64,000 bases of DNA from a virus, in IMG/VR virus record IMGVR_UViG_3300010354_004913, positions 27,226-91,225 of that record. One strand, 5' to 3'. Positions 1,731-56,029 of this stretch are shown piece after piece (the first letter of the stretch is position 1; each line of letters starts with the position of its first letter). The notes beneath the pieces are model-generated. The model searched no databases and had not been told where the DNA came from. It was given only the letters and a program-made list of their open reading frames with translations. The translations under genes and the position numbers were made by a program.

Positions 1731-2411
1731 ATGGAATTATATCTGAAGCCAGAATGGAAACGTATTGGGATCAGCATCAGCGGTGGTGCTGACAGTGCGC
1801 TTTTGGCATTTTTAGTTTGCTCAAACAGCGATGCTGAGATACATTTCACTAATCAAATTAGATTATGGAGAACTAGACCATGGCAAGAACATGTAGCCAA
1901 TCAAGTAATGGATTGGTTTCAAAATAATTTTACAAACAACTTTTACGTTCATAGAAACCTTATACCTCCAGAATTAGAATGGGCTAATAAAGGTCCTACT
2001 ATAATTGATGAATATGGCAAACTAAAAAGTGGCAATCAAATAATACTAAGATCTCATAATCAATATATTGCTAACAAATATAAATTAGATGCGTTATATG
2101 GTGGGATAACAAGAAATCCTGATGTTGAGATATCTGGTTCTCTTAGAGATAGAGACGAGGGACACATTCCTCCGTACTTTATACATGACGGTGTACATAT
2201 TTGTCATCCATTTGTATACACTAGAAAAGATTGGATAATTCAGCAGTACTACAAAAATAATATCACTGATCTATTAGAACTCACACGTAGTTGCGAAGGA
2301 GAGTTTGAAGGCATTGATTATAAAACATACGAACCAGGACAATTTGTTCCCACATGCGGTAAATGTTTCTGGTGTAAAGAACGAGAGTGGGCAATTGAAC
2401 ACACAAAGTAA
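1731..2411 (+). CDS. QueC-like PP-loop ATP pyrophosphatase
   Basis: 226 residues from ATG 1731. The N-terminus has the PP-loop signature SGGADS (residues 17-22), which binds ATP in N-type ATP pyrophosphatases. The C-terminus has an ELTRSCEG segment followed by CGKCFWCKER. This matches the four-cysteine zinc site that ends QueC (7-cyano-7-deazaguanine synthase, which converts 7-carboxy-7-deazaguanine to preQ0). The middle diverges from QueC and no QueE or FolE is visible nearby, so the substrate may differ. An upstream TTG at 1695 is in frame, but it overlaps the divergent gene and lies before the likely transcription start, so I prefer ATG 1731. Confidence 0.75.
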   Translation: MELYLKPEWKRIGISISGGADSALLAFLVCSNSDAEIHFTNQIRLWRTRPWQEHVANQVMDWFQNNFTNNFYVHRNLIPPELEWANKGPTIIDEYGKLKSGNQIILRSHNQYIANKYKLDALYGGITRNPDVEISGSLRDRDEGHIPPYFIHDGVHICHPFVYTRKDWIIQQYYKNNITDLLELTRSCEGEFEGIDYKTYEPGQFVPTCGKCFWCKEREWAIEHTK

Positions 2412-3651
2412 AACATTCTGTATGCACCCTTTTACAGGGTTAGCAACTAGAGAGGATGGCGCAATTAAAATTTGCTGCCGCAGTCAACCTATTAGTTGGA
2501 TTCAAAAAGAAAGTTTAGAACAGGCATGGAACAACGAAACCATTCAGCTAGTTAGAAAACAAGTATTAAACAATGAAAGACCGGAAGTTTGTAAACCTTG
2601 TTTTGATTTAGAAGATCAAGGGGTAGAAAGCCTAAGACAGCGACATATCAACGGCGTTATTCCAGAAGCACGTATTAACCTATATCCCGATACACCTCTT
2701 CAAGAAGTTATGCCTTTTGAATTTCCTACAATGGAAATTAAATTAAACAATTTGTGTAATTTAAAATGTAGAATGTGTAATCCTTTAGATAGTACAAGTT
2801 GGCAAGATTGGAAAGAGGTAGAATCGTTTTACGAAAAAGAAAATAATTACCTTGTACCAACAATTAGGCAACTGACAAAAACTCCTGGGCAATACATAGG
2901 ACCTTTTGACGATACTGAAAATTGGTGGGCAAGCTTTGAAAAACTATTACCATATTTCAGGCGTGTTGAGTTTGCAGGAGGTGAACCCCTCATGGATCCT
3001 CAACACTATAAAATACTTGATATGCTAAAACCTTACGGAAAGAATATAGAAATCAAGTATGCTACTAACGCAACAACATTGGGGATTAAAGGTGGAAGAA
3101 CTATTCACGATTATTGGCCTTACTTTAAATCGGTCGCTGTTAATGTCAGCATTGACGGCATTCATGATGTTTACAATTACATTCGCGGCAACAGCGACTT
3201 TGCTGAAGTTGAGCGTAATATTAAAGAAATACAAACTATTCCAAACGTCTCGAGAATAGTAGGTGCTTTTACTGCACAGGCAGGAAACATATTACAAGCA
3301 GCTGAATGTATTGATTACTTTATTAACGAAATGAATATTGTATTTTACAGTCATAGAGTAAGCTATCCAAACTGTCTAAGTGCTCAAGTATTACCGCAAG
3401 AATTAAAAGAGCTGGCTGTACAACGTTTAGAATCTGTCAAACAAAAATTGTTTACTTTTAATAATATACAAAAGTATCCGTTATTAGAAAAAATAACCTT
3501 ACAACAAATTAGAGATAATATTAATTATCTCCAGGCTAAAGATCAACACCATCTATGGGCAGACTTTATTGAATTTAATAAAAGACTAGATGCTACTAGA
3601 CATCAAGGTCCTTTAGAAAAAATTATTCCAGAATTTGCTCTCTATGTTTGA
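2395..3651 (+). CDS. Radical SAM protein with N-terminal cysteine-rich (twitch/SPASM-like) domain
   Basis: About 418 residues if TTG 2395 is used; an ATG at 2422 and a TTG at 2305 are also in frame. The radical SAM core has LCNLKCRMC (C121, C125, C128), which ligates the [4Fe-4S] cluster that cleaves S-adenosylmethionine, followed by FAGGEPL. In front of the core is a cysteine set, C9, CC27-28 and C66-x2-C69, likely to bind a second cluster as in twitch/SPASM proteins. The same set occurs in the minus-strand protein at 8070-9488, which is clearly a paralogue. The start overlaps the QueC-like gene, so the two are probably coupled. Substrate unknown. Confidence 0.85.
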   Translation: MNTQSKTFCMHPFTGLATREDGAIKICCRSQPISWIQKESLEQAWNNETIQLVRKQVLNNERPEVCKPCFDLEDQGVESLRQRHINGVIPEARINLYPDTPLQEVMPFEFPTMEIKLNNLCNLKCRMCNPLDSTSWQDWKEVESFYEKENNYLVPTIRQLTKTPGQYIGPFDDTENWWASFEKLLPYFRRVEFAGGEPLMDPQHYKILDMLKPYGKNIEIKYATNATTLGIKGGRTIHDYWPYFKSVAVNVSIDGIHDVYNYIRGNSDFAEVERNIKEIQTIPNVSRIVGAFTAQAGNILQAAECIDYFINEMNIVFYSHRVSYPNCLSAQVLPQELKELAVQRLESVKQKLFTFNNIQKYPLLEKITLQQIRDNINYLQAKDQHHLWADFIEFNKRLDATRHQGPLEKIIPEFALYV

Positions 3652-4459
3652 ACTAGTTCTAACTAATGGCAAAGAAGATCTTAGCTTATTTTTTAAACTA
3701 AGAAATACTAAAGTTGCTCACAAATGGTATCTTGAGCTTTGTAAAAACTATGAATTGTTTGAAACAGATAGATTAGACCATTGGGGTACAAACAAAGATA
3801 CATATATTAACGAACTTAACAAACAAATTGACATAATCAACCATTATCAGTATACTGTTGATCGGCGTGTTGGTTCAGATATTACACAGCAGGATCTAAA
3901 TTATCTACATAAATTTTTTGAAGATTTGCGAGGAGAAGTAACTGAAGGAACAGCATGGTATAATAGTGCTCCTGAACATGTACAAGTTGCTGTAATGCGT
4001 TTCAATGTATTGATTCATCAGTTAGAGTTTTCAATGCGAGTAAAAAAGTTACATCCAACAGTTGTGGTCACATTTAAAGACCGACCTCGATATGAACTAG
4101 ATGAAGAAGATATTAAACATTTTACTTACAAATGGAAACGAGACACAATCTATATTAATTACTGCCATGTTGGCAAGACTGTATTAGACGCATTTAACGA
4201 CGACGATAATCTAGTTGAAGCTATTCGTCCACAAACACATTACAGCGCCGACTTTATGATTAAGTTTGGTCCAAGTAGTAATCCACTTTTACACAAATTA
4301 AGAGAAATAATGATTAATCGCTGGATTAAAACAAAACAACTCAAATTTGATAATCTAAATTTGGGAATGATACCTGTAGCAGATTTGGTTAACAAAGTAG
4401 ATTTTGAAACTCTATTCAAATTCAATCAAGTCAAAGCTGTCAATTGCTTAACCAAATAA
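3644..4459 (+). CDS. Hypothetical protein in the radical SAM island
   Basis: 271 residues from ATG 3644, which overlaps the stop of the radical SAM gene by 8 bp. It is soluble, rich in charged and aromatic residues, and has no signal peptide or membrane segment. Residues about 80-150 look alpha-helical (a bundle around WYNSAPEHVQVAVMRFN), followed by a beta-rich segment. I recognise no catalytic motif. Tight coupling to the radical SAM gene suggests it works on the same substrate or is that enzyme's partner. Confidence 0.7.
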   Translation: MFELVLTNGKEDLSLFFKLRNTKVAHKWYLELCKNYELFETDRLDHWGTNKDTYINELNKQIDIINHYQYTVDRRVGSDITQQDLNYLHKFFEDLRGEVTEGTAWYNSAPEHVQVAVMRFNVLIHQLEFSMRVKKLHPTVVVTFKDRPRYELDEEDIKHFTYKWKRDTIYINYCHVGKTVLDAFNDDDNLVEAIRPQTHYSADFMIKFGPSSNPLLHKLREIMINRWIKTKQLKFDNLNLGMIPVADLVNKVDFETLFKFNQVKAVNCLTK

Positions 4460-4470
4460 ATTGACTTTTC
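4439..4470 (+). terminator. Weak hairpin with T-run at the end of the first plus-strand operon
   Basis: Arms GTCAATT (4439-4445) and AATTGAC (4459-4465) form a 7-bp stem with a 13-nt loop that holds the stop codon, followed by TTTT. The stem is AT-rich, so it is a weak terminator at best. The right arm contains the -35 box of the next promoter. Confidence 0.35.
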
Positions 4471-4489
4471 TATCTAATGGCAGTAAACT
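4461..4489 (+). promoter_or_regulatory. Sigma70-type promoter for the envelope-protein cluster
   Basis: TTGACT (4461-4466), a 17-bp spacer and TAAACT (4484-4489). It lies 34 nt upstream of the small membrane protein at 4523 and would serve the genes 4523-6214 and perhaps the radical SAM gene after them. Confidence 0.45.
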
Positions 4490-13346: not shown

Positions 13347-13375
13347 ATTTAATCCAATGTCTATTGACAGATCAA
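13347..13375 (-). promoter_or_regulatory. Sigma70-type promoter for the leftward radical SAM operon
   Basis: On the minus strand: TTGATC (13375-13370), a 17-bp spacer, TTAAAT (13352-13347). Six nt separate the -10 box from ATG 13340, so the mRNA would be leaderless. It overlaps the rightward promoter. Confidence 0.35.
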
Positions 13376-13392
13376 AAAAGTAAATATATAAT
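13364..13392 (+). promoter_or_regulatory. Consensus sigma70 promoter
   Basis: TTGACA (13364-13369), a 17-bp spacer and TATAAT (13387-13392), a perfect match to the sigma70 consensus. ATG 13399 begins 6 nt after the -10 box, so the transcript should start at or very near the start codon. No Shine-Dalgarno sequence is present. Confidence 0.75.
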
Positions 13393-13398
13393 TACAAC

Positions 13399-13986
13399 AT
13401 GAACATTTCAAAAAGCCCAGATCGCAACACTTTTCAAAAAGAAAAGTATCTTGAACGTCAAGCCGAAAAAGGTAAGACGCCTGATAATGACGAAGATACT
13501 CGTGCTATGGTCGAGTATTACGAGTCTTGGGATAAGAAAGAAGATCAACAAGAAGCAGACCCAGCATGGCGTAAAGATAACTTAGAATGGGATTTACGCA
13601 CCACAGATTGGATTTTGACCAAAGTTCGAAATAGCGAAAGCTATGCTCAAAATCTCTATGCCGCAATGTGTAATAATGATTTCATTAAACGAGAAATGTG
13701 GCCAGTGCTTAAAGAACAGAAATGGTCATGCTCTTGGCGTTATGCCGGAGGCATTGTTGCCCATATGCGACAAGAAGGTGACTACATAGACTGGTATTGT
13801 AGCGGTATTCGTGATATTGGTGTATATGCACCTGCCAAAGAAAACGAAGAATTTACCGAAGAACAAAAGGCAAGACTGGCTATTGTAGATAAATTTGTTA
13901 GTGAAAGTGTAGTTACGGATGAGATTGAAAAAGATTTATATGATCTTGGTTGGCTCGTTGTTAAATACAATGACAACCAGGATTAA
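13399..13986 (+). CDS. Conserved phage hypothetical protein (early)
   Basis: 195 residues, no recognised family. The N-terminal 60 residues are charged and probably disordered. The centre is rich in Trp and Cys (SCSWRYAGGIVAHMRQ, DYIDWYCSGIRD), and the end is acidic and helical. Being the first gene after a perfect sigma70 promoter, it is likely expressed early by host RNA polymerase. The next gene, a desaturase, starts 2 nt after its stop. Confidence 0.7.
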   Translation: MNISKSPDRNTFQKEKYLERQAEKGKTPDNDEDTRAMVEYYESWDKKEDQQEADPAWRKDNLEWDLRTTDWILTKVRNSESYAQNLYAAMCNNDFIKREMWPVLKEQKWSCSWRYAGGIVAHMRQEGDYIDWYCSGIRDIGVYAPAKENEEFTEEQKARLAIVDKFVSESVVTDEIEKDLYDLGWLVVKYNDNQD

Positions 13987-27033: not shown

Positions 27034-27076
27034 TGCGGTCTTAGGCATTCAACCCGCAATACAAATTCTGCATGCC
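27034..27076 (+). promoter_or_regulatory. Possible pseudoknot in the leader of the QueD-like gene
   Basis: TGCGG (27034-27038) can pair with CCGCA (27054-27058), and GGCAT in that loop (27044-27048) can pair with ATGCC downstream (27072-27076), which gives an H-type pseudoknot. preQ1 riboswitches are H-type pseudoknots and control queuosine genes, but the conserved preQ1-I bases are not clearly present. Low certainty. Confidence 0.25.
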
Positions 27077-27110
27077 ATCAAACTTGCTACTTTTTACAAG
27101 GAGACTAGAG

Positions 27111-27665
27111 ATGGCAAAATCTTCAACAGCTGATTTAATCAGACACATGGAAGACAATCTTCCATACCGTGGTCCTGTGTCTTATTCGTGGACCAGTACC
27201 AAAGAATACCACGATGCTTTTCCCTGCGCTTATAGGCAATGGCGGGCTGATAGTCACTGTAATTTAATACACGGTTACAGTTTTTCAATGAAGTTTTATT
27301 TCGGCACTAACAATCTCGATGTGCGAAATTGGGCTGCTGACTATGGCGGCTTAAAAGAACTCAAAAAAATTCTAGAAGATCAATTTGATCATACTTTGCT
27401 TGTAGCACAAGATGATCCAGAACTAGAAACTTTCAAATTACTACAAGAAAAGAAAATGGCTAAGATTGTGATCCTTCCCCGACTGGGCTGTGAAGGACTG
27501 GCAGATCAACTTTACAAATATGTAAATGGTGTTTACATTCCAGAAATGTGGGGACCAGGTGAGGCTGCTAGGCTTTGGTGCTATCGTGTAGAAGTCCGTG
27601 AAACTCAAAGCAATATGGCTTTCCGTGAAGGACACCGCGAATGGAACGAGGATCTGTTTGCTTAA
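27111..27665 (+). CDS. QueD-like 6-carboxytetrahydropterin synthase family protein
   Basis: 184 residues from ATG 27111, with AAGGAG 7 nt upstream; an ATG at 27072 lacks such a site. The family pattern is C-x3-HGY-x-F (CNLIHGYSF), DYGGLKELKKILEDQFDHTLL, GLADQLYKYV and a final RVEVRET. The first zinc histidine lies close to the C in SHCNLIHGY and the usual HGH is HGY, so the metal site is modified. QueD makes 6-carboxytetrahydropterin for queuosine and 7-deazaguanine synthesis. A QueC-like gene occurs at 1731 but QueE and FolE are not seen. Confidence 0.75.
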   Translation: MAKSSTADLIRHMEDNLPYRGPVSYSWTSTKEYHDAFPCAYRQWRADSHCNLIHGYSFSMKFYFGTNNLDVRNWAADYGGLKELKKILEDQFDHTLLVAQDDPELETFKLLQEKKMAKIVILPRLGCEGLADQLYKYVNGVYIPEMWGPGEAARLWCYRVEVRETQSNMAFREGHREWNEDLFA

Positions 27666-27674
27666 TCAAATATA

Positions 27675-27703
27675 TTGATTTACCAAGGCATAGATGTTAT
27701 AAT
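27675..27703 (+). promoter_or_regulatory. Sigma70-type promoter embedded in a terminator
   Basis: TTGATT (27675-27680), a 17-bp spacer and TATAAT (27698-27703). The -10 hexamer forms the tip of the terminator hairpin 27685-27715. The transcript for the UV endonuclease would start near 27710 with a leader of about 20 nt and no Shine-Dalgarno site. Confidence 0.6.
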
Positions 27704-27719
27704 ACACTATGCCTTTTTT
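27685..27719 (+). terminator. Rho-independent terminator after the QueD-like gene
   Basis: Arms AAGGCATAG (27685-27693) and CTATGCCTT (27707-27715) form a perfect 9-bp stem. Inside, TGT and ACA extend it past a bulged A and leave TATAAT as the loop. A T-run (27714-27719) follows. Confidence 0.75.
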
Positions 27720-27730
27720 AATTACACACT

Positions 27731-28759
27731 ATGACTAAACGTATCGGCTTCGCATGTAAATGGATCGATCATACTCGTCAAGTAGACGGTATCAAACCTA
27801 AAGATGACTGTAAAAAATATAATACAGGCACTACTACCGTTGCTTGGTTAAATAGACAAAGCAAGGATGTAGCAGTAGAAAAACTGTGGAATCTAATGAA
27901 GCAGAACATTGAAAGCACTCGCTTGCTAGTTGAGAAGGTGGGTAGTTTAGATGAAAATTTGCGAATGGTACGACTCAGTAGCGATATCCTTCCTGTGTAC
28001 ACTGAGTCAACTTGGTCTTGGTATTATAGGTCAGCCGATGTCAGAGATTACGCCCAAAGACATTTCAGAGCCGTGGGAGATATCGCTCGCAAGATGGGTG
28101 TTCGGCTTAGTTTTCATCCTGGGCAGTTTTGCGTCCTTGCTTCTGATAATGAAGATATTGTAAATAGAAGCATAGAGGAGTTTGAATATCATGTGGATAT
28201 GGCCCGTTGGATGGGATACGGCAACACATTTCAGGACTTTAAGATCAACGTCCACATCGCGGGTAGAGCCGGTCCCGAAGGTATCAAACGTGCTCTTTTA
28301 CGACTCAGTCCAGAAGCAAGAAATACCATTACCATCGAGAACGACGAAATCTCATGGGGCATTGACGCAAGCCAAGAGCTTGCCAACCACTGTGCCCTTG
28401 TACTCGACATACACCATCATTGGGTCCATACTGGAGAGTACATTCGACCCACCGACGATAGATATTTACGCATGATTGAAAGCTGGCGCGGAGTTCGTCC
28501 AGTTATTCATTATAGTGTTAGTAGAGAAGATCTATTAGTTAGTCACTGCAACAAAACAATGCCTAATTTAGAATTGCTACTAGAAAGCGGTTACAAAAAA
28601 CAAAAACTCAGAGCACATTCTGACTTTTATTGGAATCAAAAAGCCAACGAATATGCGCTGAGTTTCTTAGCAGTAGCCGATATTATGTGCGAAAGCAAAG
28701 CTAAGAATTTGGCTAGCTTTTCGCTACATAGTCAAGCAAAAGCATTAGGACTTTGCTGA
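27731..28759 (+). CDS. uvsE: UV damage endonuclease (UvdE/UvsE family)
   Basis: 342 residues. It nicks DNA 5' of UV photoproducts and starts an alternative excision repair. The TIM-barrel motifs are present: RLSSDILPVYT, RLSFHPGQFCVL, VHIAGRAGPEG, ITIENDEISWG and VLDIHHHWVH, which supply the metal-binding His, Asp and Glu residues. Length and order fit the family. The gene has its own promoter. A repair enzyme fits a phage of sunlit water. Its end overlaps the convergent gene by 15 bp. Confidence 0.92.
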   Translation: MTKRIGFACKWIDHTRQVDGIKPKDDCKKYNTGTTTVAWLNRQSKDVAVEKLWNLMKQNIESTRLLVEKVGSLDENLRMVRLSSDILPVYTESTWSWYYRSADVRDYAQRHFRAVGDIARKMGVRLSFHPGQFCVLASDNEDIVNRSIEEFEYHVDMARWMGYGNTFQDFKINVHIAGRAGPEGIKRALLRLSPEARNTITIENDEISWGIDASQELANHCALVLDIHHHWVHTGEYIRPTDDRYLRMIESWRGVRPVIHYSVSREDLLVSHCNKTMPNLELLLESGYKKQKLRAHSDFYWNQKANEYALSFLAVADIMCESKAKNLASFSLHSQAKALGLC

Positions 28760-37313: not shown

Positions 37314-37628
37314 ATGGCCAAACAAACAATTAATTTAGGAACACCAGACAAAGGCAACGGTGATCCGTTGCGTGTGGCATTTAATAAAGTCAACAGTAAT
37401 TTTACAGAACTTTATACGCTTACTGGTGGAACTGCTGCTGATTTAAAAGAATTAGCACAAGACTATGCGGCAGAAATGTTTACTAATGGCAATCATAGTG
37501 GTATGACCATTGTTTATAATGATGCTGCTAATACATTAAACTTAATTAATGACTTAAATATAGATGGAGGCGCTGCTTCCACAGTCTATGACAATTCAGA
37601 CTTTGTAGTCGATGGGGGCGGAGCATAA
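37314..37628 (+). CDS. Small fibre-attachment module protein (104 aa)
   Basis: 104 residues. Its first 40 residues (INLGTPDKGNGDPLRVAFNKVNSNFTELY) are the same module that opens the giant fibre and the protein at 42652. The remainder is short and ends in GGGA. It looks like a free-standing attachment module or the remnant of a longer fibre. It is followed after 1 nt by the next fibre gene. Confidence 0.7.
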   Translation: MAKQTINLGTPDKGNGDPLRVAFNKVNSNFTELYTLTGGTAADLKELAQDYAAEMFTNGNHSGMTIVYNDAANTLNLINDLNIDGGAASTVYDNSDFVVDGGGA

Positions 37629-37629
37629 A

Positions 37630-40600
37630 ATGGCATCACAAATCAAACTAAGAAGAGACACAGCAGCCAATTGGACTGCGGCAAATCCAGTGTTAGGAGC
37701 AGGAGAACCTGGTTACGATACTACCAATAGTAAACTGAAAATCGGTAATGGAACTACTGCTTGGACCAGTTTGCCCTACTTTGATGATAAAGTAACTGAT
37801 TTTAGCGCAGTAGCTACTAACGTATTACCAGACGCTGATAACACTAGAGATCTAGGATCGCCAACTAAACAATGGCGTCACGTTTATACCGCAGGCGGCA
37901 GTATCTACTTAGACAATATTAAACTTACAAACGTTGATGGTAAATTTGTTGCTACAAAAGTTATTAATCCGGGACAAATAAACGAAGCACCGGATCCTAT
38001 AGATAGTGATGCCGGCAGTGAAATAGGCAGTGGCGCCGATATAGGCTCACTAAAAATCAGCGGTAGCACAATAGGAACCGTAGACGAAAGTGATCCTACA
38101 GGTTGGGGTGACTATGATCTCGTGCTTAATCCGGGCGGTGAAAGCGCAGCCAGCATTTATATTCCCAGTGTGGGAAATCAAGGCGAAGGCTATCCCTTAC
38201 AGATTTCCAATACACAAGATTCAACCAGTATCATACAACTATTTGGTCGTGGTGGGGTTCAACTCGTTACTAACACCGGCGAAGGTCAAGAAGTTTTTGA
38301 TTTTGGTGATGATGGTAAACTACGATTACCCGTAGGTGGCGATATCTTAAATGCCAACGGTGATTCAGTATTAGGCAGTGAATCAGGATTACCAACTGTT
38401 ACTATTCCTGAAGAACAGGGAAGTACTTATAAAGGACTACAAGTCAGTTACGGTGTCGTACATAGTAACAGCAGTACTAGTGAACTTAATGTTAACAAGA
38501 TTGTAATCCACAAACCTGCTCCGACAACAACCGAAATAGACCCAACAAGCAATCAGGATTATTTTAGAGTTAGCGGTTTAGGTGACAGTGATGTGTTGGC
38601 TATGTTTGTGATTTTTGGCGATGTCAATGGACCAAAGCCACTGTCGGACCTACAGGCATTTGCTGAAGCAGCCATTGACAATGTAATCTTAGATGGCGGC
38701 GTTGAAGGGCAGTATAATACCGTAGCAGATATGAAAGCGGCATTTTATACAAATTATGCCACACTGGCATCAGCCGCAGATGGTTTAGATTTAGACTTTG
38801 AATTTTATCAAACCTATGTACCAACTACTACGGGCACAACCACAGTTCGTCAAGGTTCAGGAGCAACATTTAGCGTAACAGTGGCTATACCTGGAGAACC
38901 ATATGCGACAGCATCGCAGTTTGCGTTTGGTACTAACTATCGTGTTGGACACAAGGTTAAACTGTCAGGCGCCGACATAGGCGGAACTACACCAGAAAAC
39001 GATGTTACTATTACTGTAACCAGTGTAGATGGTGATGGAGGGATCACAGGTGTTAGTTTTGAAGGAACATCAAATGTAGGTGCTAGTCCTGGAACAATCT
39101 ACAATGGCATTTCAGGAACAAACTTCAATGTAGGTTCAGGATTCAACGTATTAGGAATAAGTCAACTGGTAGACGGTAGTTACAGTAGTTTAAATCTAAG
39201 CGCATTGGGGTCACAATATGTAGTAGGCGATGTACTAACTCTATTAGGTGCGAACCTTACCAACGGCACCAGTCCCGCTAACGATATCACTATCACTATT
39301 CAGACTGTTGACGGTAGTGGTGTTCCTTCCGATTGGAGCGTATCAGGTACTATTCCTCGAGTATGGCCTGAAAACAGCATCAGTGATGGCGGCAACGATC
39401 AGTACGATACTGCTAACTATATCAACAGTTTTTATACGACCAATATTGGATATAATCAAGGCAACACCGTAGCAGATGGCACAGCCGTATTTGGCGCAGG
39501 ATCCAGTTATAGTTTTGTCTATGACACAGGTATCTTTGGGCTCTTAGTCACAGGCAATCAATCAACATTCATTGAAACCAGCGGTAACAGCGGAGCAGAT
39601 GGCAGTAGTACTACAGAAGCAGGCAACATCTACGGGCCAGACATTGCCGCTCAAACTTTTGACAATGCTGTCACACACATCAACTTAATAGGCGATCCGT
39701 GGGCTGGTCCAATCATTACATTTGTTCGTCCTGACAACAGCGATGAAACTATCGACATACTAATAGCCGATGACGGCAACGGAGCAGGCGTAGCCATAGC
39801 CAGAAGCAGTAATGGAAACGGTATCTTTAACCCTTACAGAGAAGAAGGTTGGAGCAACAACACCAGTCCTGCAGGCACACTATGGAACACAGATGGCTGG
39901 AACGATCTCAGCAATGTGACTACAAGGATTTATGATAACCTGTATGCAGCTTTTGGCTCAGGCGGTTTAGGTAATAAGATTGTAGGCACAGAATGCGTAA
40001 TGTATTTGCCAGACAACGGCAAATACTATGCTGTTAAGTTTGATGCTTGGACACAAAACAACAACGGCGGTGGATTTGCCTATACACGCAGAGAAATAGA
40101 TTTAGACAATCTACAAGAAGGTATTAGATTCTCTGACGGTACAAGACTTAAATCTGCTGAAGGCATAGGTCGCGTCAAGTTAGAAAGTCCAGGCGATCGT
40201 AAGATTGAAGAAGTATACGGATACAAATCAGTAACACTGACACCTATTGCAACCACTGACATAACTACAACAGCATCAAGAGCCGGCAGTAATACTTTTG
40301 ATGTTTGGATTGACTCTACTGCTACAACAATAGATGATGTTGTTGACAATCCAGCAAACTACGGCAACGCCTATGGTTTTGAATTTTCATTAGACAACAA
40401 TACTTGGTATAGTTGGACCGGCAGCACCGGGTTTGATGGCAACGAACGAGCCTACAGTATAAATCCCACATTGGTTACTTATAATCAAGGTGATACCATT
40501 TACTTTAGATACAAGACTGGTGGCACACCAGTGGTATGGTGGGATAGAACTGAGTTGCCTGGCGGAGGTGGTAACTTCCGAGGCGCTGTCATAGACTATC

Positions 40601-40836
40601 ATGCTTATACCGGTGAATCAACTATCATCGGAACTATACATATTGTCAGAGACAGCGGCGAAGAACATATCAGCCACCAAGAAGTTCAAAGTGGCAGTTC
40701 TGACGGTGAGAATGATGATCTTTGGGTAGTTGATCAAGAAGGGCAGATTAAGTATCGCCGTATCGATGGCGAAGGCAAAACACTAAAAGTACAGTGGAGT
40801 GCGCGAGTATTCTACGGTTCAGAATTCTACGATTAA
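37630..40836 (+). CDS. Tail fibre protein with Mtd-like N-terminal domain
   Basis: 1068 residues from ATG 37630. The start (IKLRRDTAANWTAANPVLG, then GEPGYDTTNSKLKIGNG) matches the N-terminal domain of the Bordetella phage major tropism determinant, common at the head of phage fibres. It continues with beta-rich repeats and ends in WWDRTELPGGGG and a VQWSARVFYGSEFYD tail. By eye its bases are less AT-rich (many GGC, GCC and CAGC codons) than those of the giant fibre, so it may have a different recent origin. Confidence 0.8.
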   Translation: MASQIKLRRDTAANWTAANPVLGAGEPGYDTTNSKLKIGNGTTAWTSLPYFDDKVTDFSAVATNVLPDADNTRDLGSPTKQWRHVYTAGGSIYLDNIKLTNVDGKFVATKVINPGQINEAPDPIDSDAGSEIGSGADIGSLKISGSTIGTVDESDPTGWGDYDLVLNPGGESAASIYIPSVGNQGEGYPLQISNTQDSTSIIQLFGRGGVQLVTNTGEGQEVFDFGDDGKLRLPVGGDILNANGDSVLGSESGLPTVTIPEEQGSTYKGLQVSYGVVHSNSSTSELNVNKIVIHKPAPTTTEIDPTSNQDYFRVSGLGDSDVLAMFVIFGDVNGPKPLSDLQAFAEAAIDNVILDGGVEGQYNTVADMKAAFYTNYATLASAADGLDLDFEFYQTYVPTTTGTTTVRQGSGATFSVTVAIPGEPYATASQFAFGTNYRVGHKVKLSGADIGGTTPENDVTITVTSVDGDGGITGVSFEGTSNVGASPGTIYNGISGTNFNVGSGFNVLGISQLVDGSYSSLNLSALGSQYVVGDVLTLLGANLTNGTSPANDITITIQTVDGSGVPSDWSVSGTIPRVWPENSISDGGNDQYDTANYINSFYTTNIGYNQGNTVADGTAVFGAGSSYSFVYDTGIFGLLVTGNQSTFIETSGNSGADGSSTTEAGNIYGPDIAAQTFDNAVTHINLIGDPWAGPIITFVRPDNSDETIDILIADDGNGAGVAIARSSNGNGIFNPYREEGWSNNTSPAGTLWNTDGWNDLSNVTTRIYDNLYAAFGSGGLGNKIVGTECVMYLPDNGKYYAVKFDAWTQNNNGGGFAYTRREIDLDNLQEGIRFSDGTRLKSAEGIGRVKLESPGDRKIEEVYGYKSVTLTPIATTDITTTASRAGSNTFDVWIDSTATTIDDVVDNPANYGNAYGFEFSLDNNTWYSWTGSTGFDGNERAYSINPTLVTYNQGDTIYFRYKTGGTPVVWWDRTELPGGGGNFRGAVIDYHAYTGESTIIGTIHIVRDSGEEHISHQEVQSGSSDGENDDLWVVDQEGQIKYRRIDGEGKTLKVQWSARVFYGSEFYD

Positions 40837-45601: not shown

Positions 45602-48600
45602 ATGTTGTTAAAAGAATATATTGTTACTTTAAAAAACAAAAGTGACTTAGAAAGTTTCTATTCCGATATGGAACAGAAAAATCAAAAACTTTTTATTCCA
45701 AATCGAGCAGTAGAGTGTGTTGAAAAAAGAAGTATCAGCAGAAATACGCACTATCTACTTAATATTGACGAAGCAGAAGAACTTAAGAAAGACCCTAGGG
45801 TAGCTGCAGTCAGCTTAAATTCTACTGAGTTAGGTCTACAAGTTGAATCACATGCTACGCAGCTAGCAAACTTTAATAGATCAAGTAGCATAGCGTTTGG
45901 TCATAAAAACTATGGCCTTTATCGTTCGTATATTACTAAAAATGATCCCACATGGACTGGGGACAAAGTAGCATCTATAACACTTAATAGAACTGGACAG
46001 GATGTTGATGTAGTTATTGTAGACGAAATACTGTATCCTAACCATATAGAATATAGTAGTAGATCTAATCAAATAGATTGGTTCGCTGAATATGATACAC
46101 TGGTAAGAACTACAGGAACTCAAATTGCTAGAATAGAACGAGCATCTGATAATGTATCTAGAATTACAACTAAATCTCCGCATGGATTAAAAGCTGGAAA
46201 TTATGTAACTGTAGTATGCCCTAGTGATTCTAGTTTTAATGTTACTAATGTTCCTATCATTGATGTAAGTGCTACACCAGTTGGGCTAGGCGGAGACGGG
46301 GTTACTATTAATAGATTTAGATATTCTAACCCGGGCAGTGTTGTAAATGTAATTACAAGAACAGTCATTTCTGTAGCTCGCTCTAACGATGTTACCACAG
46401 TAATTTGTTCATCGTCACACAGTTTATCTAATGGGCAGACCATTGGAATTAATATTACTACAACAGGTTATTCAACTTTTGCCGCAGCCAATGTTCCAAT
46501 AACTATAGTAAATTCTACAACATTTACCTATCCAAATATTGGATCCGATGTTAGCACAACATCAGTGTCGGGAAATGTATATCCCGACGGAAATCTAGGA
46601 ACTTGGACAGGCAATTATCTTTATAATAATTACAGTGGCAATAATAATCATGCTACAGTTATAGCTGGAATTATCGGAGGCAGTACTCAAGGTTGGGCTA
46701 GAGATGCTAATTTATATAATATACGACATGATTATTCTAATAACAATACATTTGTTCCATTAGAATATGTTATAGATTATGTAAGATACTGGCATTTAGA
46801 TAAACCTATAGATCCAGTTACTGGAAGAAGAACTCCTACATTAGTAAATTGTAGTTGGGGTGTTTCTAGAAGTACCACTGCTAGAAATAATTACACAGGC
46901 GGTAACAATACTAACATTAGTAGAATTTTTTATAGAGGGTCTACTATTGAAGCTACAGATTTAGGCAACTCCCCATTAGATGTTGGATTCAGCGGTGTAT
47001 GTAACTCAAATACTGTAATTGGCGAACTCAAGGGGGCACAAGTTGGAAGTACACCAGCTACCACTGTTATCTTTAGTAGTTCCGGATCTACTGGTACAGG
47101 GCAATTCGCTAAAGCATCACTTATAGGAACTATTAATGCTGGAGATTATGTAGAATGTAATGCGACCGGGTGGCTTAAAGGAGCAAGAATAACTAGTGTA
47201 ATAGATGCTGGAACAGAATACATTTTTACAGTTAATTTTTTTAAAAATACAACTGTTACATCTACTTCGACTGCTACATGTACCTTTTATAGTTCAACTA
47301 TGGAAAACATAGGGTTTGAAATAATTACAACTAATTCCACCACAGCCACCGTTACATCAATACCAGCAGCCCTAGGCGGATCTTCAAGTATGATTGATAC
47401 CGGTGCTCCAACAGGATTTAGTGTTAATGGACTTAATACTTACGACGACGCAACTTGGTCTATAGTTTTACCATTTAATATTGTGTTTGCTGGAAATAAT
47501 TATGGGCCAAGTTACGGTAGTGGAACGGTAGGAGACGATGCTTACCTTAACGTTAGCTCTAATAGTTTTGTTGTTTTTGGCGGTGGCCCTGTTTTAGGAT
47601 TTAATAAAGAACCGCAGCCAACTGGCCCAAGTGCTAGAAAAATTGTAATCAGTGGTTCAGATTTAAGTGCTAGAAAAGTGTATACTCAAACTACAGGTAG
47701 TACACCAAACAGAATTTTTAGAATACGATGGGAAGGACATAATGCTCCGGAGGGCGGAGATGTTAACAATCCTACTATGATTTGGGAAATGAAATTCTTT
47801 GAAGCTACTAATAATAGAATTGAATTACACGTAGGATCTAATGCTAATTATCGAGGAGAGTTTACATCATCACAATTATTAGATTATGGTATTAATTTAA
47901 ATTCTTCTACCGTTCCTCAACGATACGCAGCGTTAGATGCAGATATAGAAGACTGTATTGACGATGGAATAATTTTTGTAGGAAGTTCTGGTAATAATAA
48001 CTATAAAATTGACGCCGTAGGTGGATTAGATTACAACAATTATTATGTTGAAAAAGGTGTGTCTTATTACTACCATCGAGGCAGCAGTCCTGGTTCACAA
48101 TCTAATGTAATTTGTGTTGGCGCATTAAGCTCATCAAGTAGTATAGAAAGAAAAACATTTACTAGCAACGCAGGACCTAGAGTAGATTTATATGCGCCTG
48201 CAGAAAATATAATTTCAAGTGTCTATGACGGTTCAGGCGCAGGCACATCAAGCACAATACGTAATACAACTTATGAAGTAAGTATTAGTGCTGTTAGTAG
48301 AAATAATGCTACTAGTACCGCTACAATCACAACAGCTACCGCTCACGCATTAAATACTGGTGATTTAATTACTATACAAACAGTTAGCGACTTTAGTTTT
48401 CAAACTACAATGACTCCTATAGTTGTAACTGGTCCTAACTCGTTTACATATACTAATGTAGGACCTAATGTTGCTGTAAGCACTCCGGCTACTGGTACTG
48501 TATGGCCTGGATACTTCTATCAAAAGTATGAAGGAAGTAGTATTGCGGCTGCTCAAGTTTCAGGAGTACTTGCTCTTGCTTTAGAAGAATATCCAGATAT

Positions 48601-48829
48601 GGATCAAACAGAAGCAAGGAATTATATAACTAGATATGCCCGGGCTGGACTTATGTCTAACACTGCGGGCGGATATTCAGACGATCTAAGTTTACAAGAC
48701 GGTCCAAACAAAATTCTATACTACTATAAAGAACGCGAGATATCTGGATTTGTGTCTCCAAAAGTAAATTATAGAGTACGTCCAGAAAGCGGACTAGTAT
48801 TTCCTAGACCTAGAATAAAACGTACTTAA
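45602..48829 (+). CDS. Virion-associated subtilisin-like (S8) serine protease with beta repeats
   Basis: 1075 residues. The N-terminal 75 residues resemble an I9 propeptide. The S8 triad is readable: Asp141 in DVVIVDEIL, His350 in NNHATVIAGIIGG, Ser980 in EGSSIAAAQVSG, with the oxyanion Asn in GSSGNN. Between Asp and His sit two copies of a beta module (T.SPHGL..G..., FTYPNIG...), and a third copy lies before the Ser, so the fold is split by large insertions. Lying among fibre genes, it may mature fibres or cut host surface proteins. The usual HGTH is NHAT, so activity is likely but untested. Confidence 0.82.
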   Translation: MLLKEYIVTLKNKSDLESFYSDMEQKNQKLFIPNRAVECVEKRSISRNTHYLLNIDEAEELKKDPRVAAVSLNSTELGLQVESHATQLANFNRSSSIAFGHKNYGLYRSYITKNDPTWTGDKVASITLNRTGQDVDVVIVDEILYPNHIEYSSRSNQIDWFAEYDTLVRTTGTQIARIERASDNVSRITTKSPHGLKAGNYVTVVCPSDSSFNVTNVPIIDVSATPVGLGGDGVTINRFRYSNPGSVVNVITRTVISVARSNDVTTVICSSSHSLSNGQTIGINITTTGYSTFAAANVPITIVNSTTFTYPNIGSDVSTTSVSGNVYPDGNLGTWTGNYLYNNYSGNNNHATVIAGIIGGSTQGWARDANLYNIRHDYSNNNTFVPLEYVIDYVRYWHLDKPIDPVTGRRTPTLVNCSWGVSRSTTARNNYTGGNNTNISRIFYRGSTIEATDLGNSPLDVGFSGVCNSNTVIGELKGAQVGSTPATTVIFSSSGSTGTGQFAKASLIGTINAGDYVECNATGWLKGARITSVIDAGTEYIFTVNFFKNTTVTSTSTATCTFYSSTMENIGFEIITTNSTTATVTSIPAALGGSSSMIDTGAPTGFSVNGLNTYDDATWSIVLPFNIVFAGNNYGPSYGSGTVGDDAYLNVSSNSFVVFGGGPVLGFNKEPQPTGPSARKIVISGSDLSARKVYTQTTGSTPNRIFRIRWEGHNAPEGGDVNNPTMIWEMKFFEATNNRIELHVGSNANYRGEFTSSQLLDYGINLNSSTVPQRYAALDADIEDCIDDGIIFVGSSGNNNYKIDAVGGLDYNNYYVEKGVSYYYHRGSSPGSQSNVICVGALSSSSSIERKTFTSNAGPRVDLYAPAENIISSVYDGSGAGTSSTIRNTTYEVSISAVSRNNATSTATITTATAHALNTGDLITIQTVSDFSFQTTMTPIVVTGPNSFTYTNVGPNVAVSTPATGTVWPGYFYQKYEGSSIAAAQVSGVLALALEEYPDMDQTEARNYITRYARAGLMSNTAGGYSDDLSLQDGPNKILYYYKEREISGFVSPKVNYRVRPESGLVFPRPRIKRT

Positions 48830-54065: not shown

Positions 54066-54295
54066 TTCATCCACTGGCTGAAGATTTTACACAACTCAAA
54101 GATGCTGAAGTCGAATCTCGACTTCAGGATCTAAGTAAAAAATACTGGATGACAAACAATCCTCATGTACGCCAACAAATGAACGTGTTGATAGGCATTT
54201 ACAGAGAAGAATTGAGTACAAGACGCCAGCGAGCTTTACAGCAACAATACCAAAACAGAGACAAAGGTCTTGACAAATTAATTAAAGTAAACTAA
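54062..54295 (+). CDS. Small conserved phage protein after the fibre block
   Basis: 77 residues from ATG 54062 (ATGA overlap with the fibre gene). Helical and charged throughout: HPLAEDFTQLKDAEVESRL, KKYWMTNNPHVRQQMNVL, REELSTRRQRALQQQYQN. I recall similar short proteins beside T4-like tail genes in marine phages; no function is known. The basic C-terminal half could contact DNA or a virion protein. Confidence 0.68.
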   Translation: MIHPLAEDFTQLKDAEVESRLQDLSKKYWMTNNPHVRQQMNVLIGIYREELSTRRQRALQQQYQNRDKGLDKLIKVN

Positions 54296-54304
54296 AATAC
54301 TTTA

Positions 54305-55045: not shown

Positions 55046-55384
55046 ATGAACACTGTTAAAGGTACAATTAAACCTCTAAGAGATAATGTCTTAGTAGTTG
55101 ATATGGATTTTGATGAACAACGTACACGGTCAGGTATCATTATTACATCAGATGACGGTAAGGGACACGGTGTTAAGCCTCGATGGGCTCGTGTATGGGC
55201 AGTAGGGCCCGATCAAACTGATGTACAAGTTGGCGAATGGATCTACGTAGAACACGGTCGTTGGACTAGAGGAATCAGTGTCGAAGACAATGGTAAAGAA
55301 ATTACCATTAGAATGGTTGAACCAAAATCAATTATGCTTCAATCTAACGAAAAACCAGAAGACGTATATTTAGGTGCCGAATGA
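55046..55384 (+). CDS. GroES-like co-chaperonin (gp31-type role)
   Basis: 112 residues. IKPLRDNVLVVDMDFDEQ at the start, then a mobile-loop-like stretch RTRSGIIITSDDGKGHG, and RWARVWAVGPDQTDVQVGEWIYVEHGRWTRGI follow the GroES beta-barrel order. T4 gp31 and similar phage proteins replace GroES to fold the capsid protein inside GroEL. The length is slightly greater than GroES. The stop overlaps the MazG start by 4 bp. Confidence 0.85.
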   Translation: MNTVKGTIKPLRDNVLVVDMDFDEQRTRSGIIITSDDGKGHGVKPRWARVWAVGPDQTDVQVGEWIYVEHGRWTRGISVEDNGKEITIRMVEPKSIMLQSNEKPEDVYLGAE

Positions 55385-55740
55385 CAAATCCATTTCAAGA
55401 TCAAGAAAAGTTTATGCGAGCCTGTGATCAAACTGTGGGCGAAACTAATGCTTATCAATTTCATTTATACAAAAATCTTATTGAAGAAGAATTTAAAGAA
55501 CTTCAAGAAGCAGATAATCAATTAGAACAGTTAGATGCTTTAATAGATATATTAGTTGTAACTATTGGTGCTATTCATTCTGCTGGATTTGACGCAGAAG
55601 GGGCTTGGAAGGAAGTCATGCGTACTAATTTTGCTAAAATTGATCCTATTACTGGTAAAGTTAATAAGCGTGAAGATGGCAAAGTACTAAAGCCAGAGGG
55701 GTGGCAACCTCCCAATTTGAAACCTTTTTTAACAAAATAA
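55381..55740 (+). CDS. MazG-like nucleotide pyrophosphohydrolase
   Basis: 119 residues. The metal-binding pattern of all-alpha NTP-PPases is visible: EEEFKE (35-40) and LDALIDIL (51-58), with Asp56. The ending NFAKIDP resembles the usual SN..K motif. Such enzymes hydrolyse dNTPs or, as argued for cyanophage MazG, ppGpp-like signals; the substrate is not certain. It closes the GroES operon and is followed by a terminator. Confidence 0.82.
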   Translation: MTNPFQDQEKFMRACDQTVGETNAYQFHLYKNLIEEEFKELQEADNQLEQLDALIDILVVTIGAIHSAGFDAEGAWKEVMRTNFAKIDPITGKVNKREDGKVLKPEGWQPPNLKPFLTK

Positions 55741-55742
55741 CC

Positions 55743-55770
55743 ATAAGAGTCTTGACTGACTCTTATTTTT
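55743..55770 (+). terminator. Rho-independent terminator after MazG
   Basis: Arms ATAAGAGTC (55743-55751) and GACTCTTAT (55758-55766) form a perfect 9-bp stem followed by TTTT (55767-55770). The 6-nt loop is TTGACT, the -35 box of the next promoter. Confidence 0.75.
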
Positions 55771-55780
55771 ATAGTAAAAT
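55752..55780 (+). promoter_or_regulatory. Sigma70 promoter whose -35 box is a terminator loop
   Basis: TTGACT (55752-55757), a 17-bp spacer and TAAAAT (55775-55780). ATG 55787 comes 6 nt later with no ribosome site, so the mRNA would be leaderless. Confidence 0.65.
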
Positions 55781-55786
55781 ACAAAA

Positions 55787-56029
55787 ATGAGCTTTCGTAT
55801 CACTTGGGACATAGCTAACATTACGCAACAGATTTATAAGATGAGAGCTGAGGTTTGTTCTCCTTATAATGACGGATTTTCGCAATGGTCGATTAAACAA
55901 GATTTATATCAATTAAAATGGCTTATAGATCAATCGTTAGAATCATGCCCAACATTCTCAGACGAAGAACAATGGCTCAAAGAACAAGATCAAAAAAGAA
56001 TGTGGAAAACTATAAAGGATAGCAAATGA
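55787..56029 (+). CDS. Conserved phage hypothetical protein (80 aa)
   Basis: 80 residues, helical: ITQQIYKMRAEVCSPYNDGF, IKQDLYQLKWLIDQSLESC. No motif known to me. It is the first gene of the replication operon that runs to the clamp loader, ferredoxin and dCMP deaminase. It is probably translated from a leaderless message. Confidence 0.6.
   Translation: MSFRITWDIANITQQIYKMRAEVCSPYNDGFSQWSIKQDLYQLKWLIDQSLESCPTFSDEEQWLKEQDQKRMWKTIKDSK

Follow-up and report, generated by a model that had tools for sequence, protein, structure and literature searches.

A putative interlocked terminator-promoter element in phage DNA, with the -35 box in the hairpin loop

Between a MazG-like gene and the small gene that follows it, a 64,000-nucleotide stretch of viral DNA (the window; IMG/VR record IMGVR_UViG_3300010354_004913, positions 27,226 to 91,225) carries an element in which a terminator hairpin and a promoter occupy the same bases. 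Judged from its sequence and from its relatives in other phages, this element is most probably an interlocked intrinsic terminator and sigma70-type promoter of ~38 bp that would insulate and restart transcription within about 45 bp. Its bases, at 55743-55780, are very probably a real, selected part of the genome and not a coincidence.

All components of the element lie on the + strand, within the 46 bases that separate the two genes. The upstream gene (55381-55740), which encodes a MazG-like nucleotide pyrophosphohydrolase, ends in the stop codon TAA at 55738..55740. It is followed by a hairpin (55743..55766) that is supported by folding, by a terminator scan and by covariation in relatives, and whose left arm ATAAGAGTC (55743-55751) and right arm GACTCTTAT (55758-55766) form a perfect 9-bp stem around a 6-nt loop. 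The T-tract TTTT (55767..55770), recognized in the sequence and by the scan, completes the intrinsic terminator. The loop is at the same time the -35 hexamer TTGACT (55752..55757; TTGACA in most relatives), from which a 17-bp spacer (55758-55774) leads to the -10 hexamer TAAAAT (55775..55780; TATAAT in most relatives). Six nucleotides separate the end of TAAAAT from the ATG at 55787, placing the start codon of the downstream gene (55787..56029, 80 aa) at the predicted transcription start, as expected of a leaderless mRNA. This anatomy, from the 9-bp stem, the TTTT and the TTGACT loop to the 17-bp spacer, TAAAAT and the ATG 6 nt on, had been described in an earlier note made from the sequence, and its description proved exact at the base level. 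The 80-aa protein belongs to no family in PHROGs or Pfam, and an Rfam search of the window returned no match.

The predicted RNA fold of the hairpin has an energy of -11.3 kcal/mol (z -5.4), and none of 200 shuffles folded as well. In the promoter and terminator scan, the element scored 10/12 as a promoter, with a 17-bp spacer, and contained a 9-pair terminator. It combines the stable stem and following T-tract of an intrinsic terminator with the -35/-10 consensus of a sigma70 promoter, spaced within 16-18 bp. The copy in the window is nevertheless weaker than most, with the 10/12 hexamers TTGACT/TAAAAT, three G-C pairs in the stem and a T-tract of 4 nt.

When read as RNA from the upstream gene, the hairpin and U-tract would form and polymerase would stop, and when read as double-stranded DNA, the same bases would present the downstream gene with a sigma70-type promoter, TTGACT/TAAAAT. 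Polymerase bound there would begin ~30 bp past the loop, beyond the hairpin; since this start lies beyond the left arm, the promoter's own transcript would be unable to form the terminator, a consequence of geometry that presumably holds in cells. The net effect would be insulation and restart in one minimal joint. We infer that termination and initiation take place at the element in infected cells, that the polymerase involved is of the host sigma70 type and that a 5'-terminal AUG is where translation begins. The 91-kb record is a fragment, and a phage-encoded polymerase or sigma factor may be involved instead.

A more far-reaching reading, which we consider doubtful, couples the two processes: the terminated polymerase would stay on the DNA at the overlapping promoter, restart and make a leaderless mRNA, the joint handing polymerase from gene to gene as separate transcripts. 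We know of no natural element built for post-termination reinitiation. In vitro, E. coli polymerase has been described to remain on the DNA after termination and to reinitiate at promoters close by (PMC6978380, PMC6978322, PMC11347151). The element would allow a natural test of whether a terminated polymerase restarts on the spot.

Sigma70-like hexamer pairs alone occur at chance level in the AT-rich window (71, versus 69.8 in shuffles), so the case is carried by their combination with the hairpin and by the relatives. The comparison with shuffled controls proposed in the earlier note was run on the contig and 14 relative contigs. Under strict criteria, these contigs, which were picked partly for carrying the element, contained 14 interlocked sites with the -35 box in the loop, versus a mean of 0.2 and a maximum of 1 in 20 dinucleotide shuffles, a result that leaves the claim of a recurring element standing. 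Across ~1.8 Mb of relative contigs, we found 22 hairpin-promoter overlaps, some of them one site repeated in near-identical contigs, and every one had the 17-bp spacing.

It is quite unlikely that the element is just an ordinary terminator and an ordinary promoter that overlap through short intergenic space, the interlocked geometry itself being unselected. Phage intergenic regions are indeed short, and promoter and terminator also occur in tandem in the same contig upstream of the window (G000:544) and in RB49. However, the -35 box is far commoner at the hairpin centre than at other offsets: in the relatives, the distance between the two centres peaks at zero (12 sites in one 4-nt bin and at most 3 in any other), and in RB49 it is mostly +28 to +48. 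The 17-bp spacer is moreover constant, and the -35 box persists through changes of the stems. Space pressure may be the cause of selection, in which case this explanation differs from the interlocked reading mainly in emphasis.

To gather relatives, viral contigs were searched with both proteins, MazG and the 80-aa one, and the sequence past the MazG stop codon was inspected. After the same MazG gene, many phages carry AAAGGGTC-TTGACA-GACCCTTT followed by a T-tract, TATAAT and ATG, and another phage carries AAAGGGAC-TTGACA-GTCCCTTT; most MazG-encoding relatives have no element past the MazG stop codon. The pattern GTCTTGACAGAC was present as a single copy in each of 5 of 20 relatives; the element is therefore not repeated in high copy. 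Across 23 aligned elements, 97.3% of the stem cells are paired, a value partly built in by selection of the elements on their inner five pairs, and two-sided changes occur in 7 of the 8 pairs. These changes occupy 27 cells, versus 6.5 when shuffled, and slid registers pair in 12 to 66% of cells. In the outer three pairs, on which no selection was made, both sides vary as well, and 18 to 22 of 24 elements retain the pairing. The stem letters change compensatorily around a constant frame of TTGACA, 17-bp spacer and TATAAT, and the hairpins, with a T-rich tail, have a mean energy of -13.0 kcal/mol.

We also scanned the collection with the pattern GTC-TTGACA-GAC-N14-TATAAT, which presumes a GTC/GAC inner stem. 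In viral contigs it matched at least 120 stretches, versus 16 for a control with the left arm reversed. The matches listed fall into 75 distinct contexts, of which 58 have stems of at least 5 bp (typically 8 bp) and 56 a T-rich tail; none of the 10 control contexts has such a stem. Bacterial and archaeal genomes (257 billion bases) gave 57 matches, that is, background only, with stems of just 3-4 bp in 53 of 56 distinct contexts. The suggestion of a recurring compact terminator-promoter element is therefore borne out in many more phages, by covarying stems, a fixed -35/17/-10 frame and the T-tract. Among cultured phages, the interlocked form occurs in S-CREM1 (near 65750, 79007 and 165385) and S-SM2 (167151), both phages of Synechococcus, and in the Pseudomonas phage PA5oct, where the spacer is 18 bp; a scan of Syn9 found no interlocked element. 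When named phages were queried by BLAST with the short element, most matches were look-alike terminators of other phages that lack the -35 loop; S-CREM1 was the useful match. As a separate observation, S-SM2 (121655; L323 ~601) and L324 carry a nested hairpin before a conserved gene beside hsp20, the right arm of which provides the -35 box (TTGACG in S-SM2, TTGACT in SynMITS9220M01).

The gene neighbours of the element are diverse: the 79 distinct elements are flanked by 23 gene families on the upstream side and 25 on the downstream side. With the element, the MazG family precedes 9 different downstream families, and MazG neighbours vary without it as well. In five relatives, dnaJ-like genes are preceded by an interlocked joint, again with differing stems. 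The ATG lies 5-9 nt past the -10 box in nearly half of the elements, and ~20 nt past it in others, several of which have a stretch resembling a ribosome-binding site.

The earlier note had named two further sites of the same kind, and one of them is real. There, a -35 hexamer TTGATT (27675..27680, + strand) precedes the hairpin AAGGCATAG-(13 nt)-CTATGCCTT plus T-tract (27685..27719, + strand), seen in sequence, fold and relatives; the arms pair (z -5.7), and the loop contains TATAAT (27698-27703). This sister element serves a gene identified by protein family search as a UvdE-like endonuclease (27731..28759, + strand). Its predicted start falls inside the right arm, and the new transcript would lack the left arm. 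The forms with -35 and with -10 in the loop are two registers of one design. Among 50 uvdE relatives, the arrangement recurs in L504 and L507, whose stems differ (one pair is G-T in L507), and L461 has a similar hairpin upstream of uvdE with a weaker promoter. Of the uvdE relatives (L452-L531), 29 have a recognizable promoter, and in 23 of these a distance of five or six nt separates the -10 box from the chosen ATG; in two or three others, a hairpin with -10 in the loop is present instead. A QueD-like gene is located in the window at 27072-27665. The second site, a weaker candidate at 4439-4489, was rejected as a third element: it folds no better than shuffled sequence (z -0.71; 46 of 200 shuffles folded equally well) and is not kept, three relatives of the gene upstream having neither hairpin nor promoter at the matching place.

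The palindrome around the -35 box might alternatively be an operator, bound by a dimeric repressor or activator as an inverted repeat, with the RNA hairpin incidental. Inverted repeats of 22-24 bp with a 6-bp centre over the -35 box are a common operator layout, but we regard this explanation as very unlikely. The arms covary between phages and differ among sites of a single contig (G005, G006, G010 and S-CREM1), which argues for a hairpin rather than the operator of one protein. In nearly all elements the 3' arm runs into a T-rich tract, in most MazG-linked cases a few nt separate the upstream stop codon from the left arm, and the sister form places -10, not -35, in the loop. That the hairpin, instead of terminating, stabilizes the 3' end of the upstream mRNA or serves in its processing, with the promoter overlapping it, is hardly credible: terminator hairpins do also shield RNA 3' ends, but intrinsic terminators are recognized by just such a G+C-containing stem running straight into a canonical U-tract.

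The 6-nt distance between the -10 box and ATG extends beyond the interlocked elements. In the contig and its relatives (window genes and 14 relative contigs, L095-L186), 3212 first-ATG ORFs were surveyed, and in 48 of them a -10 box with a -35 box ends exactly 6 nt before the ATG; every other distance from 0 to 34 is represented by 1 to 11 ORFs, and shuffled upstream regions give a mean of 4. Under strict criteria, 34 ORFs have the 6-nt distance, versus at most 8 for any other. In the window, the class comprises the promoters of the genes at 13399, 54305 and 55787, the first two being of the plain type: TTGACA-17-TATAAT (13364..13392, + strand) and TTGACA-17-TAAAAT (54270..54298, + strand), found by the promoter scan, each 6 nt ahead of the start codon. 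The distance peaks at 21-26 nt in cyanophages and around 29-32 nt in RB49, and the 6-nt class is absent from Syn9, S-SM2, RB49 and PA5oct. This spacing predicts leaderless mRNAs in the phage group, and with them how these phages and their hosts begin translation.

The interlocked joint illustrates that opposite transcription signals can share bases and persist while the stem is rewritten, a design that recurs with differing stems in dozens of other phages, many of them aquatic, cultured Synechococcus phages among them. The joint explains how about 50 bp can accommodate a stop codon, a terminator, a promoter and a start codon, and may be viewed as a minimal natural insulator-plus-promoter part. 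The contig that carries it has a gp44-like clamp loader and a GroES/gp31-like gene, as a T4-like phage might, and its nearest group is that of the Pseudomonas jumbo phage PA5oct. The phage contig also encodes a tryptophan halogenase-like protein (L002:7320-8543; PHROG 2928, E 2e-79) and several radical SAM domain proteins (window 2305-3651, L003:7474-8619 and L003:9288-10265). A 1075-aa protein (window 45602-48829) matches a subtilase (S8) domain near its C-terminus; large genes lie in a row there, its own and a tail-fibre-like one (37612-40836) among them.

The element shares a G+C-containing perfect stem, a short loop and a T-tract with intrinsic (Rho-independent) terminators; in place of a stable TTCG-type tetraloop, it has a -35 hexamer that is fixed across phages. 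With sigma70-type promoters it has the TTGACA, 17 bp, TATAAT frame in common, but inverted repeats flank its -35 box and, in the phage group, the -10 box is often 6 nt from the ATG. A literature search found no description of a promoter box inside a terminator loop. Leaderless mRNAs, of which lambda cI is an example, resemble the predicted transcript in that its +1 would be the A of the ATG; the difference is that the class predicted here, from sequence, has dozens of member genes within a phage group.

The closest likeness is to the promoter-early stem-loops (PeSLs) of T4-type phages, composite promoter-terminator motifs that were reportedly described by Arbiol in 2010 and by Comeau in 2014. 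Like PeSLs, the element combines a small intergenic stem-loop terminator with a strong sigma70-like promoter and occurs between many different gene pairs. In our own scan of RB49, from which the PeSL geometry used in this comparison is taken, 12 cases have the promoter beyond the hairpin, 2 have -10 inside the loop and none has -35 there; in the tandem cases, the -35 box is about 29-45 nt past the loop start. Some RB49 early promoters (L431-L439; for example, 115005, 121708 and 134521) have a G+C-rich palindrome as their 17-bp spacer. A tandem hairpin, ATAGCACC-TTCG-GGTGCTAT, followed by a T-tract and then TTGACT-17-TATAAT, is located at L002:544-563 (G000), on the same contig upstream of the window. 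Whereas the RB49 PeSLs are mostly tandem, hairpin first, both signals share the same bases in the interlocked element; since it lacks the tandem order, we regard it as a PeSL variant and not as a PeSL proper. Its varied gene neighbours resemble the gene-shuffling role claimed for PeSLs, a likeness to be read alongside the variation of MazG neighbours where the element is absent.
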